From assembly GCF_900177655.1 (NCBI RefSeq), contig NZ_FXWK01000001.1, positions 434,001 through 498,000 of the forward strand: 64,000 nucleotides of DNA, in the 5' to 3' direction. Of this stretch, positions 15,289 to 18,844 are shown piece after piece. This DNA comes from Devosia lucknowensis. Lineage in GTDB: Bacteria; Pseudomonadota; Alphaproteobacteria; Rhizobiales; Devosiaceae. Position numbers and translations under genes: made by a program. Position 1 is the stretch's first letter. Each line of letters starts with the position of its first letter. The notes beneath the pieces were generated by a model, which was not told the origin of the DNA, did not search any database, and saw only the letters and a program-made list of their open reading frames with translations.

Positions 15289-16581
15289 TCAGGCCAGGGA
15301 CTTTATGTCGAGGCTGTCGAGATAGGCCTGAGGGTCGGCGGGATCGAACGTCTTGCCGTCGAAAAAGGTCTCGACGCCTCGGCTATCGCCCGAGGGGAGG
15401 TCCGTGAAACCGAGTTCGGTTGCCGCTTCCAGCCACAAGTCCGAACGATTGGTCTTGTTGACGAGTGCTGCAACGTCGGTGTCGGCGGGGAAATAGCCCC
15501 AGCGGATGTTCTCGGTCATGAACCAGGTGTCGAGGCTCTTCCAGGGGTAGGAACTCTCCCCCTTTTCGCCCCAGAATTTCATGAACAGATCGGTGCCGGT
15601 CTCGACGCGGCCATTGCCGTAATTGATGTCGCCCTTGATGCGGCCGATGATGTCGGCGACGGGAACGTTGTACCACTGGCGACGGCCAACGATCTCGGCC
15701 ATCTCCTGCTTGTTGTCCATGCTCTCGCACCACTGCTGGGCTTCCATGACGGCCATCAGGATGGCCTTGGTGGCCAGCGGGTTGGCATCGACCCAGTCAG
15801 CACGCATGCCGAGTACCTTTTCAGGATGGTGCGCCCAGAGCTCACCCGTGGTGGCGGCGGTAAAGCCGATACCCTGGTTGACCAGTTGCTCGTTCCAGGG
15901 TTCGCCGACACAGAAGGCGTCCATGGTGCCGACCTTCATGTTCGCCACCATCTGCGGCGGCGGCACGACGATGACGTCGACATCGACATTGGGGACGATG
16001 CCACCGGCGGCCAGCCAGTAGCGGATCCAGAGGTCATGCGTTCCGCCGGGGAAAGTCATGGCGACGCTGGGCGCGCCGCCAGCGGCCTTCTTTGCGGCAA
16101 AGGCCTCCTTGAGCGGGGAGGCGTCGAGGCCAACGCCAATGTCAGCGTATTCCTGCGCCACGGAAAGGCCCTGGCAATCCTCGTTGAGGTTGAGCAGCGT
16201 GTACATCGGCAGCGGCTGGTTGTTCTGGGTGACCGCGCCGGAGGTGTAGAGGTGCACTTTCGGCCGGAGGATATGGCCGCCATCGATGCCTCCATTGGCC
16301 GAGCCCAAGGCCATGTTGTCGCGCGTGGCGCCCCAGCTGGCCTGCTTTTCGATGGCCATTTCAGGTAGGCCATACTTGTCGAACAGGCCCTTCTCTTTGG
16401 CGATGATCAACGGCGCGGAGTCAGTGAGAGCGATATAGCCGAGCTTGGTACCAGCGACTTCCGGACCTGCACCCTGTGCGAAGGCGCCGGCGGGAAACAG
16501 CGCCTTGGCGGCGAGCAGCGTGGCGGCCGTTGCGGAGGCGCCCTTCAGGAAGGATCGGCGGGTGGTCGTCTTCAATGTCAT
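15289..16581 (-). CDS. nrtA: Nitrate ABC transporter, substrate-binding protein (TAT-exported)
   Basis: A 430-residue periplasmic protein of the CmpA/NrtA family. The N-terminus MTLKTTTRRSFLKGASATA is a twin-arginine signal, ending near AGAFAQG. Core motifs include GYIALTDSAPLIIAKEKGLFDKYGL, MAIEKQASWGATRDNMALG and DAFCVGEPWNEQLV. It binds nitrate for NrtB/NrtD. The start at 16581 has GGAG 6 bases upstream; a longer frame to 16602 lacks one. It is the first structural gene after the regulated leader, and the sensor NasS encoded upstream is a truncated-looking paralogue of it. Confidence 0.93.
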   Translation of the reverse strand: MTLKTTTRRSFLKGASATAATLLAAKALFPAGAFAQGAGPEVAGTKLGYIALTDSAPLIIAKEKGLFDKYGLPEMAIEKQASWGATRDNMALGSANGGIDGGHILRPKVHLYTSGAVTQNNQPLPMYTLLNLNEDCQGLSVAQEYADIGVGLDASPLKEAFAAKKAAGGAPSVAMTFPGGTHDLWIRYWLAAGGIVPNVDVDVIVVPPPQMVANMKVGTMDAFCVGEPWNEQLVNQGIGFTAATTGELWAHHPEKVLGMRADWVDANPLATKAILMAVMEAQQWCESMDNKQEMAEIVGRRQWYNVPVADIIGRIKGDINYGNGRVETGTDLFMKFWGEKGESSYPWKSLDTWFMTENIRWGYFPADTDVAALVNKTNRSDLWLEAATELGFTDLPSGDSRGVETFFDGKTFDPADPQAYLDSLDIKSLA

Positions 16582-16605
16582 CGCAGTCTCCAGTTGCACC
16601 ATGCG

Positions 16606-16670
16606 ACAAAAGAAAAGGCTGCCAACGGGAGACGATCGGCGGTGAGCCGGTCGTACCAGTTGGCAGCCTT
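16606..16670 (-). terminator. Intrinsic terminator in the nrtA leader
   Basis: On the minus strand AAGGCTGCCAAC (plus-strand 16659-16670) pairs with GTTGGCAGCCTT (plus-strand 16615-16626), and an inner stem ACGA-CGGC/GCCG-TCGT extends the hairpin. The T-rich TTTTCTTTTGT follows at once. This is a strong terminator placed just upstream of the nrtA ribosome site, so it must be bypassed for the operon to be expressed. Its first arm is shared with the second ANTAR hairpin. Confidence 0.88.
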
Positions 16671-16698
16671 GCCTGTGAGGCGCCCGTCATTGGGCGCC
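16662..16698 (-). ncRNA. Two-hairpin ANTAR target RNA (NasT binding site)
   Basis: Hairpin 1 (16679-16698) is GGCGCCC, loop AATGAC, GGGCGCC. Hairpin 2 (16662-16673) is GGC, loop AAGGCT, GCC. Five bases separate them. Both loops are six bases with A at position 1 and G at position 4, the rule established for ANTAR-protein targets. The loop and 3' arm of hairpin 2 are the 5' arm of the terminator, so the two folds exclude each other. The ANTAR protein is encoded by nasT nearby. Confidence 0.82.
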
Positions 16699-16740
16699 GA
16701 CGAGAAGAGCGTCTTGGGAGGAGCTCGTTCGCAACCTTCA

Positions 16741-16758
16741 TTGCAGGAAGCGTGCCAA
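16741..16758 (-). promoter_or_regulatory. Sigma-54 (-24/-12) promoter of the nitrate operon
   Basis: On the minus strand the sequence is TTGGCACGCTTCCTGCAA: the invariant GG and GC are separated by exactly 10 bases and the flanks match TGGCAC and TGCA. Initiation about 12 bases downstream places the ANTAR hairpins and terminator inside the transcript. Confidence 0.85.
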
Positions 16759-16865
16759 GAGCTCAGGTTAGAAAATTGTTGTTATTCAGCAGGGAGTTGA
16801 GCGGACGGTGGCCTCAAATGCTGCAATCCCAGGTCCACCACCACCAGGCTGAGTAGAATGCAGTG

Positions 16866-16882
16866 TGCACAAATGGTGTGCA
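16866..16882. promoter_or_regulatory. NtrC-like enhancer site upstream of the nitrate promoter
   Basis: A perfect inverted repeat TGCACA-AATGG-TGTGCA lies about 110 bases upstream of the sigma-54 promoter, the distance expected of an NtrC enhancer. It resembles the NtrC consensus TGCACC-N5-GGTGCA, differing at the inner position of each arm. Binding by NtrC is inference. Confidence 0.65.
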
Positions 16883-16956: not shown

Positions 16957-18162
16957 TCAGCTCCGCTGCGCTGCGATATAGGCGTCCAGATGGTCTGGAT
17001 CGAATACTGTGCCATCGAAAAAGCGGTTCGGTCCTGCGGTCAGCTCGCCGTTGGTCGCTGCGATGAGGTGCGGTGCGGGCTGGTCGCCGTCGCGTCGATA
17101 ATCATCCGAGGGGGTCGGCACGCCAAGCGGTGCCAGTGCCGCTCTGTAAAGATCCGGTCGGAATGTACCGGCGGCAAGCTTGGCATTGACGTCGCTGGTG
17201 GTGGCTTCGTTCCAGCGTACCATCTGGCTGTAATACCAGAGCGCATGACTTTTCCATGGGAAAGTGGCCACGCCGTCGTGCGGAATGAAATAGTCGGTGA
17301 CGTCGATGACGCGCGTTCCGGTGTCGATCCGGCCGGTCAATGCGCGCTCGACGATATCGATGGGCAGGTCGAGATAGGCGGGGGCGGCCATGATGCTCGC
17401 GGCGTGCAAGCGGTTTTCCCCGACTTGGCACCATTGGCCGGCTTTGTAGACTGCGCGGACGATGCGCTCCACGAGATCGGGGTTTCGTTCGGCCCAATCC
17501 GAGCGCATGCCGATGGCCTTGTCTGGACTCCATTGCCAGATCGACGCCTTGGTGGTCGCAATACGGGCGCCATGCCGCGATACGCCGACGCTGTTCCACG
17601 GTTCTCCCACGCAATATCCGTCGAGACTGCCGGCACCGAGGGCTTCGGGCAGAAGGGGAGGTGGCAACACGACGATTTCGATGTCGACGTCGGGTCTGAT
17701 GCCGCTGGCGGCCAGCCAGTATCGCAGCTCATAATTGTGCGAGGATGTCTGGTGCACGACGCCGAAGCGGAGTTTACGGGCGTTCGACTTGACGACCTTG
17801 GCCAATGCCTGCCCTGCCGGTCCGGCCTGAAGATCACCAGGCGCGCCGGCGTCGGCCATGGATTTCCACAGTGCGGCGCTGACTGTGATGGCGTTGTTGC
17901 CCAGTCCCGTCATGATCGGAACGATCATGGGCGTCGAAATGGGGGTGAGTCCCAGGCTGGCGGCGATCGGCATCGGCGCGAGGACCAGCGAGATATCGAA
18001 GTGGCCGAGCGCGGTACGGTCACGGATGTTGGCCCACGACGTCTCCCGGGTTAGGCCGAGCGTAAATCCTTCTTCCTCGGCGAAACCCATTTCGTGTGCA
18101 AGCACGAGCAGGGCACTGTCCAGCAGGGGCAGGAAGCCGGCGGTGACATGGGGAAGGGTCAT
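16957..18162 (-). CDS. nasS: Nitrate sensor of the NasS-NasT antitermination pair
   Basis: A 401-residue protein of the CmpA/NrtA family (TAGFLPLLDSALLVLAHEMGF, ETSWANIRDRTALGHFDISL, GSLDGYCVGEPWNSVGV) but with no signal peptide, so it stays in the cytoplasm. In characterised systems NasS holds NasT inactive until nitrate or nitrite binds. Its place directly downstream of an ANTAR gene and upstream of nrtA supports that role rather than transport. The start ATG at 18162 is 10 bases after the nasT stop. Confidence 0.88.
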   Translation of the reverse strand: MTLPHVTAGFLPLLDSALLVLAHEMGFAEEEGFTLGLTRETSWANIRDRTALGHFDISLVLAPMPIAASLGLTPISTPMIVPIMTGLGNNAITVSAALWKSMADAGAPGDLQAGPAGQALAKVVKSNARKLRFGVVHQTSSHNYELRYWLAASGIRPDVDIEIVVLPPPLLPEALGAGSLDGYCVGEPWNSVGVSRHGARIATTKASIWQWSPDKAIGMRSDWAERNPDLVERIVRAVYKAGQWCQVGENRLHAASIMAAPAYLDLPIDIVERALTGRIDTGTRVIDVTDYFIPHDGVATFPWKSHALWYYSQMVRWNEATTSDVNAKLAAGTFRPDLYRAALAPLGVPTPSDDYRRDGDQPAPHLIAATNGELTAGPNRFFDGTVFDPDHLDAYIAAQRS

Positions 18163-18172
18163 GGCTTTATCC

Positions 18173-18763
18173 CTAGGGGCCGAGCAGATTGGCGGCGGTG
18201 ACGAGGCTCTGCGCGATGTCCACCAGTCGGCGATTTTGGTTCATCGCCGTCTTGCGCAGCAGCGCATACGCTTCGGGCTCGGAAAGGCTCTTCGTCTTCA
18301 TCACGATGCCCTTGGCCTGGTCGATGATCTTGCGCTCCTCAAGCGCACTGCGTGCCTCCTCCAGTTCGCGCGTGAGACGCGAGAAGGCATTGAAGCGCGA
18401 AATCGCCATATCGAGGATGGGTTTGATGCGCTCCTTCTTGAGTCCGTCGACGACATAGGCCGAGACGCCGGCCTCGATGGCCTTTTCCGTTGTGCTCGTA
18501 TCCGATTGATCCACGAACATGGCGATCGGTCGTTGAATGGCGCGGCTCAAGGAGAAGAAGTGCTCCAGCGTGTCGCGCTTGGGATTTTCCAGATCGACGA
18601 AAACGACATCGGGTTCGGACTGCTGAATGGTGCGGCCAACCTCTTGCACGTCATGGATGACGGACACCCGCACATAGCCCGCCTCGCGCAGGCCTTCCTC
18701 GATGATCGAGGCGCGGATGCGGTTCTCATCGATGATCAGAATGGACAGGTCGGGGCTGGGCAT
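18173..18763 (-). CDS. nasT: ANTAR-domain RNA-binding antiterminator
   Basis: A 196-residue protein with an N-terminal receiver-like domain (ILIIDENRIRASII, Asp57 in VVFVDLENP) and a C-terminal ANTAR domain (KIIDQAKGIVMKTKSLSEPEAYALLRKTAMNQNRRLVDIA). ANTAR domains bind tandem hexaloop hairpins and prevent termination; such a target lies in the nrtA leader. The gene precedes nasS. The 82-base gap before its start contains an inverted repeat TGTGCT/AGCACA (18780-18798) and a TGCACC half-site; whether these control it is unknown. The ribosome site is weak. Confidence 0.92.
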   Translation of the reverse strand: MPSPDLSILIIDENRIRASIIEEGLREAGYVRVSVIHDVQEVGRTIQQSEPDVVFVDLENPKRDTLEHFFSLSRAIQRPIAMFVDQSDTSTTEKAIEAGVSAYVVDGLKKERIKPILDMAISRFNAFSRLTRELEEARSALEERKIIDQAKGIVMKTKSLSEPEAYALLRKTAMNQNRRLVDIAQSLVTAANLLGP

Positions 18764-18844
18764 CGTCGGCAGATAAGCCTGTGCTTACAAAAAGCACAAG
18801 TGCCGAAGGTGCACACTAAGTATGCAAAAGCGACCTGGCCGATT

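Follow-up and report, generated by a model that had tools for sequence, protein, structure and literature searches.

A nitrate-assimilation locus with a leader between nasS and nrtA

The window, the whole 64-kb stretch of DNA that was analysed, comes from the 3.71-Mb, two-contig genome of Devosia lucknowensis, whose genus includes named Devosia such as Devosia submarina (L002). The minus strand carries, in order, nasT, nasS, a leader region, nrtA, nrtB, nrtD, nirB, nirD, a presumed nitrate reductase gene and a cysG-like gene:

18173..18763, minus strand: nasT, response-regulator and ANTAR RNA-binding protein, an antiterminator (Pfam ANTAR 78.1 bits, Response_reg 48.1 bits)
16957..18162, minus strand: nasS, adjoining nasT, NMT1-like nitrate-sensor partner of NasT (Pfam NMT1_2 222 bits)
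15289..16581, minus strand: nrtA, binding protein of a nitrate ABC transporter, probably starting at 16581, with another in-frame ATG at 16602
15231-14338, minus strand: nrtB
14329-13538, minus strand: nrtD
13531-11042, minus strand: nirB
11045-10701, minus strand: nirD
10552-7919, minus strand: presumed assimilatory nitrate reductase (molybdopterin reductase), function assigned from context
8232-6400, minus strand: cysG-like gene

NasS and NrtA share about 31% identity, with NasS named from context and homologues and NrtA from context. NasT is the sole ANTAR protein match found in the whole genome, which also encodes NtrC (674.9 bits) and RpoN (422.1 bits), both above cut-off. The presumed reductase matches formate dehydrogenase alpha (448 bits, the top NCBIfam model) above NasC (384 bits), both below cut-off, and has a NifU-like stretch at its C terminus (residues 806-870).

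A sigma-54 promoter and NtrC-like sites

Between nasS and nrtA, and again upstream of nasT, lie elements that would place the locus under nitrogen control:

18810..18826, minus strand: NtrC-like site upstream of nasT, TGCAT-N7-GTGCA, one mismatch
18798-18780, minus strand: second NtrC-like dyad upstream of nasT, TGTGCTTTTTGTAAGCACA, read by eye
16866..16882, minus strand: NtrC-like palindrome TGCACACCATTTGTGCA, 10 of 10 positions, its centre 116 bp upstream of the -24 GG
16742..16758, minus strand: sigma-54 promoter TTGGCACGCTTCCTGCA, with GG at 16756-16755, N10 and GC at 16744-16743; the same element occurs in relatives
16731, minus strand: transcription start predicted from sigma-54 spacing, the C of GC being taken as -12

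Sigma-54 promoters follow the consensus GG-N10-GC with a TGGCAC...TGC core, to which the element at 16742..16758 is a good match. The pattern TGGCACN6TGCW occurs once in the window and at least once in 30 of 100 shuffles, and because 0.33 occurrences are expected by chance in 64 kb, the motif is not decisive by itself. A looser scan found sigma-54 motifs in 54 of 59 Devosiaceae regions downstream of nasS, those in L119 and L149 not being the leader's own promoter.

The palindrome pattern TGCACN7GTGCA has one perfect match in the window, and five matches when one mismatch is allowed, compared with 2.88 expected. NtrC-like sites were scored in 50 of the 59 regions from Devosiaceae and in 35 of the 80 from elsewhere, using a promoter pattern stricter than that of the looser scan. 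Matches of at least 8/10 were present in 21 of the 50 Devosiaceae leaders, compared with about 10% of shuffles; for leaders from outside the family the figures are 30 of 35 and about 11% of shuffles. The best match within 190 bp had its centre 113-117 bp upstream of the -24 GG in 24 of the 50 Devosiaceae leaders, several of these 24 matches being weak and some reaching just 6 or 7 of 10; in the other 26 it lay elsewhere. The window's palindrome is among the 24, an enhancer-type palindrome at a conserved distance upstream of a sigma-54 promoter, and this conserved position supports 16866-16882 as a candidate NtrC site.

Upstream of nasT, the sigma-54 motif was absent in 60 of 60 relatives by the pattern used, and NtrC may act there without RpoN. 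As a raw count, 23 of the 60 relatives have an NtrC-like match of at least 8/10 at -62 to -64 from nasT, and others have one near -35.

Paired ANTAR hairpins, the second overlapping an intrinsic terminator

Downstream of the predicted start the leader holds two hexaloop hairpins and a terminator:

16679..16698, minus strand: P1 hairpin, GGCGCCC-AATGAC-GGGCGCC, 7-bp stem, hexaloop AATGAC with A1 and G4
16662..16673, minus strand: P2 hairpin, GGC-AAGGCT-GCC, the putative antiterminator, 3-bp stem, hexaloop AAGGCT with A1 and G4
16608..16670, minus strand: intrinsic terminator (-36.5 kcal/mol), built of an outer stem of 12 bp and an inner stem, with UUUUCUUUU as its tail

Both loops have A1 and G4, as in dual-hexaloop ANTAR targets, and the linker between P1 and P2 is a short 5 nt. 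The terminator arms are AAGGCTGCCAAC (16670-16659) and GTTGGCAGCCTT (16626-16615), and the U-tract ends at 16608. A sequence-only reading of the window had proposed an NtrC-like palindrome, a sigma-54 promoter, two A1/G4 hairpins and a U-tailed terminator, and all of them lie where it had placed them; its further claim that the 5' arm of the terminator consists of the loop and 3' arm of the second hairpin was confirmed, the arm starting with the opening base of the P2 loop. That reading also set the terminator about 25 bases before the nrtA start, which holds for the ATG at 16581 (26 nt past the U-tract, with a GGAG ending 6 nt before it) and fails for the ATG at 16602 (just 5 nt past).

Because the terminator stem begins at the P2 loop and is far stronger, P2 and the terminator are mutually exclusive. 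The leader RNA from predicted start to U-tract folds to -61.8 kcal/mol, compared with -37.3 for shuffles (z -6.9). P2 has an uninterrupted stem of just 3 bp and is absent from the predicted minimum-energy fold, which is the terminator. Since P2 is so short and that fold is the terminator, antitermination would have to rely on protein binding.

The leader plan recurs downstream of nasS

No Rfam family matched the 64-kb window at its gathering score, so covariance models of our own were needed; at E <= 10 the leader drew six sub-threshold Rfam matches, which we took as chance or likeness of shape. As a comparative set we took the regions downstream of nasS in 80 contigs of named records, 60 Devosiaceae stretches and the window, 141 in total, of which 139 were usable after leaving out L138 and L158, which have no nasS match; at least three genomes are present twice among the 139 (L002/L133, L003/L151 and L004/L148).

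Of the 139 regions, 89 combine two A1/G4 hexaloops with an overlapping terminator that has a U tail, at least one match (L119, linker 15) using a wrong P1; of 417 mononucleotide shuffles, 0 do. The geometry, which the sequence-only reading had called unusually explicit, is accordingly rather the ordinary plan of a NasT leader. Apart from L078 (16 nt) and the doubtful L119 (15 nt), the linkers in the other matching leaders span 1-8 nt. A relaxed search, which required G4 in both loops and A1 in P2 but no given base at P1 position 1, detected P1-P2 in 97 of 139 regions, the constancy of G4 and of the P2 A1 being by construction because the searches required them; the free position was A in 90 of the 97 and G in seven. 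The remaining 42 regions fall outside even the relaxed pattern, and many of them are distant homologues.

Support for the stems came from a first model built on 66 of 81 distinct P1-P2 sequences, with close likes and the long-linker L078 left out. Changes on both sides with pairing kept occur at four of the seven P1 pairs and one of the three P2 pairs. Over the whole structure there were 42 cells of two-sided change compared with 8.9 in shuffles, and slid controls dropped to 38-61% paired, the paired percentage of the model itself being inflated because its members had to have 6/7 P1 pairs. The two-sided changes in P1 exceed both the shuffle and the slide controls.

A second model was built on 33 of 34 non-Devosiaceae leaders, omitting L040, whose P1-P2 matches a Devosiaceae one. 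Free of any Devosiaceae sequence, it matched the window exactly at 16698-16662, the interval for which a covariance match had been foretold, with 50.9 bits (E 2.4e-9); the next best match in the window reached 9.9 bits. In the whole genome, the nrtA leader was the single strong match of both models. The next best matches reached 20.7 and 20.2 bits (E 0.43 and 0.55) with the first model and 19.9 and 19.5 bits with the second, and we claim none of them as a further NasT target.

Across 75 genomes of the genus, 53 have an ANTAR-model match at E <= 0.01, some of them two or more. At the loci tested by tblastn, strong matches adjoin nas genes, standing before nrtA, nirB or a cysG-like gene; others lie downstream of nrtD or nasS, where the next gene had no match to the queries used.

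Some leaders depart from the plan. In seven close relatives (L112-L117 and L119) the P1 loop starts with G and keeps G4 (GACGAC, GATGAC, GAAGAT, GATGAT and GATGCA), a natural exception to the A1 rule. By eye, the leaders of L038, L042, L044, L048, L054, L036 and L014 have an extra 5' hairpin with an A1/G4-like hexaloop (GAGCC-AATGAC-GGCTC in L048), which suggests three NasT sites in a row. The nasS of L040, a metagenome-assembled genome labelled Burkholderiales 68-10, is 65% identical to the window's, its P1-P2 is that of the Devosiaceae L153, and its nasT, nasS and nrtA matches are each split in two pieces; it is probably a mis-binned Devosia contig.

A probable nitrate-responsive attenuator behind a predicted nitrogen-responsive promoter

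These features point, with high probability, to a NasT-type ANTAR attenuator behind an NtrC/sigma-54 promoter that controls nrtABD, nirBD, the nitrate reductase gene and cysG. The architecture, its conservation and the presence of the required factors are established at the level of sequence. The two-layer switch of the earlier reading is supported by the covariance match, the presence of NasT, NtrC and RpoN, and the recurrence of the plan in relatives, but that reading omitted a 5' hairpin, described below.

From studied homologues we infer activation by NtrC and RpoN, nitrate sensing and antitermination. When nitrogen is short, NtrC at 16866-16882 would activate RpoN polymerase at 16742-16758, and promoter firing would yield a leader of about 125 nt. 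Without nitrate, NasS would hold NasT, the P2 sequence would be drawn into the terminator and transcription would stop at the U-tract near 16608. With nitrate, NasS would free NasT, which would hold the A1/G4 loops of P1 and P2; the P2 loop and 3' arm, once held, would be unable to form the base of the terminator, and polymerase would enter nrtA. Read-through from nasTS could also feed the leader.

That the terminator just ends the nasTS transcript, with no nitrate control, would suit its position after nasS and its strength as an intrinsic terminator, but it is preceded by a sigma-54 promoter of its own, lies 26 nt before the likely nrtA start and takes as its 5' arm an ANTAR P2 hairpin found across families, and we regard this reading as extremely improbable.

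The attenuator reading agrees with the earlier note that the mechanism is of a known kind, with studied homologues in Paracoccus and Bradyrhizobium. In the available parts of the published accounts, the Paracoccus denitrificans nasA leader, like the one here, goes with nasTS beside the structural genes and a nitrate-sensitive NasS-NasT complex (PMC3795266, PMC5424462), and has leader hairpins that are bound by NasT or needed for its control, as well as an NtrC-like site at nasT. There, the RNA of the nasA leader is bound by NasT, and the NasS-NasT complex falls apart in the presence of nitrate or nitrite (PMC3795266); a chromosomal change in leader hairpin HI abolishes growth on nitrate, and nasT is under NtrC control (PMC5424462). 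The NtrC (or NtrX) site of the Paracoccus structural operon is described in those parts as 'as-yet-unidentified', whereas Devosia has a visible candidate together with a sigma-54 promoter; nor do they mention a 5' CUCCUCCC hairpin in the nasA leader (PMC3795266, PMC5424462). In Bradyrhizobium, NasT relieves termination in the nosR leader (PMC6759348).

The nasF operon of Klebsiella shares the NtrC layer. That layer works through sigma-54. The nasF leader bound by NasR also has P1 and P2 with A1/G4 loops and P2 overlapping the terminator, but NasR is a one-component protein with a NIT domain, where Devosia has NasS and NasT (PMC3369936). Enterococcus EutV leaders are likewise described with dual A1/G4 hexaloops, limited spacing and P2 overlapping the terminator; they answer a different signal, and the accessible passages do not mention a third conserved hairpin (PMC3369931, PMC8934654). 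The P1/P2 model with A1/G4 loops derives from such leaders (PMC3369931, PMC3369936), and in the EutV structure G4 makes the only base-specific contact and the loops are bound in turn (PMC8934654). The two-layer switch of Devosia lucknowensis would be one more member of this known kind, with a layout that is common among the alphaproteobacteria sampled.

A third hairpin at the predicted 5' end has a conserved core

One further element lies between the predicted start and P1:

16704..16730, minus strand: 5' hairpin GAACGAGCUCCUCCCAAGACGCUCUUC, with the conserved core GCUCCUCCCAAGACG at 16724-16710

This third hairpin makes the Devosia leader a variant of the ordinary NasT-leader plan. Scoring 80 of 92 leaders, we predicted a 5' hairpin with E <= -4 in 79, whatever its sequence (mean -7.4 compared with -4.2 for shuffles), and a 5'-terminal stem therefore appears to belong to the plan. 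This hairpin carries CCTCCC in 29 of 54 Devosiaceae leaders, and L119, whose genome holds the 14-mer described below (L231), is a thirtieth. Across the 29, GCTCCTCCCAAGACG has 12 invariant positions out of 15, six of these by the way the set was selected, and the other three are 93-97% conserved; the invariance of the 14-mer in alignment A2 is likewise by selection of the set. The flanking bases are 48-59% conserved, conservation is under 60% at three of the six positions in the P1 loop, and NasT of these genomes is 69-100% identical to that of Devosia lucknowensis. The core of the 5' hairpin is kept more tightly than the P1 loop in Devosiaceae.

For the stem, a fixed-register alignment gave 78.2% paired, compared with 80.0% in shuffles; when each type was given its own register, the observed value was reached by 114 and 73 of 500 shuffles, and covariation therefore does not support the stem. 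Apart from weak pairing inside it, the loop is predicted to be largely unpaired (32 leaders, 11 nt, mean unpaired 0.65). We rejected pairing of the loop with other parts of the leader, for which there were stretches of just 5-7 pairs, many of them with the U-tract.

The 14-mer CTCCTCCCAAGACG has 33 sites in 25 of the 75 genus genomes (reversed control, 0), and an ANTAR-model match lies 10-15 nt downstream of every one of the 33, whether the leader is a first or a second one. The 13-mer TCCTCCCAAGACG has 55 sites in 43 of 136 family genomes (reversed control, 4), 37 of them placed in leaders; among the other 18 there is one more leader (L284, ANTAR model 47.9 bits). The 17 that remain have no promoter, no P2 and no model match above 11.1 bits. 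Eight of these, in genus genomes (L267, L272-L277 and L279), have their surrounding sequence in common, again with no promoter or ANTAR motif, and thus represent one inherited site. The 13-mer alone is not exclusive to leaders. Family-wide, the 14-mer lies in leaders in 38 of 39 cases, a complete copy in L283, from another genus, being the one site elsewhere. The genome of Devosia lucknowensis has the 13-mer once, in the nrtA leader. Second leaders with promoter, hairpin and ANTAR motif and the same 5' loop occur before nirB in L220, L222, L227 and L228, and downstream of nrtD in L217, L218, L226, L232 and L233.

The new part is a 15-nt RNA element, almost unchanged in sequence among species with NasT proteins up to 31% different from that of Devosia lucknowensis; confined to these leaders in the 75 genus genomes, it points to a further partner in nitrate regulation. 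A literature search, in which subscription journals lay mostly outside the scope, found no description of such a 5' hairpin in a nitrate leader.

Candidate roles of the 5' hairpin

We give an even chance to a role in cis, the 5' hairpin being a site at which a further protein or RNA would bind or bring about processing, setting the stability of the leader or the chance of antitermination. The constant place of the 14-mer upstream of the ANTAR motif in all 33 genus cases and the prediction of a 5' hairpin in 79 of 80 leaders favour this, as does the fact that small DUF1127 proteins accompany CcsR-type sRNAs in alphaproteobacteria. On the other side, UUCG or other short loops suffice in many other leaders, and stem covariation of the conserved-loop class is not above that of shuffled arms.

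We judge it unlikely that the leader, once terminated, serves in addition as a trans-acting RNA, abundant under nitrogen starvation without nitrate, with an exposed CUCCUCCC loop that pairs with Shine-Dalgarno regions of other mRNAs in the way that NfeR1, an sRNA linked to NtrC, acts on ntrB. This would explain a core conserved far above its flanks across NasT identities of 69-100% and a loop predicted to be largely unpaired, and GCUCCUCCC has eight of the nine letters of the anti-Shine-Dalgarno motif CCUCCUCCC, which in NfeR1 silences ntrB; cuckoo-like RNAs are, moreover, encoded elsewhere in the genome. However, the conserved core extends into AAGACG, past what an anti-Shine-Dalgarno seed needs, and a short-loop hairpin replaces it in a number of relatives. 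The candidate target motif TTGGGAGGAG-N2-14-ATG occurs in 54 of 75 genomes, but it resembles a good Shine-Dalgarno sequence and is also present in genomes without the 14-mer; no conserved mRNA target of the loop emerged from the scan of the 75 genomes, a scan that was not discriminating.

A fuller form of the trans-acting reading would make the Devosiaceae leader two devices: without nitrate, it would be truncated to a small RNA of about 125 nt, the GCUCCUCCCAAGACG hairpin affecting in trans how other nitrogen genes are translated, and with nitrate it would become the operon mRNA. We hold this to be slightly less likely still; if it were true, NtrC and NasT would jointly set the level of a small RNA, and not of the operon alone. 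With the 5' hairpin, the reuse of attenuated leaders as regulatory RNAs can be tested sharply and cheaply.

Quite improbable is that the conserved 15 bp are instead a DNA element in the initially transcribed region, such as a regulator site just past the sigma-54 start. The core does lie 17-20 nt after the promoter TGC in 32 of 32 listed cases, and the weak covariation of the stem would suit a DNA element, but dyad symmetry is absent, the spacing varies by 3 bp, and in nearly all cases a predicted hairpin has the core in its loop and inner stem.

The 5' hairpin resembles the cuckoo or alpha-r14 sRNAs, which include NfeR1. Their published descriptions give them an anti-Shine-Dalgarno CUCCUCCC loop core, variable stems and a tie to nitrogen stress, like the Devosia hairpin, but also three hairpins and CCUCCUCCC, whereas Devosia has one hairpin with GCUCCUCCC, inside an mRNA leader (PMC10746234, PMC3927594). 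NfeR1, the alpha-r14 RNA of Sinorhizobium, is under NtrC repression and itself silences ntrB (PMC10746234). We did not class the leader hairpin with this family because three family tests failed: its loop differs from the motif by one of nine letters, it is a single hairpin in place of three that each bear the motif, and it scores 12.7 bits with Rfam RF02344, for which the gathering cut-off is 58.8. Two tandem cuckoo/alpha-r14-like RNAs seem to lie elsewhere in the genome, at L173 1501-1963 (G000:C1:1903789-1904251); they score 33.9 and 33.4 bits, below the 58.8 cut-off, and by eye each has three TCCTCCTCCC loop stretches.
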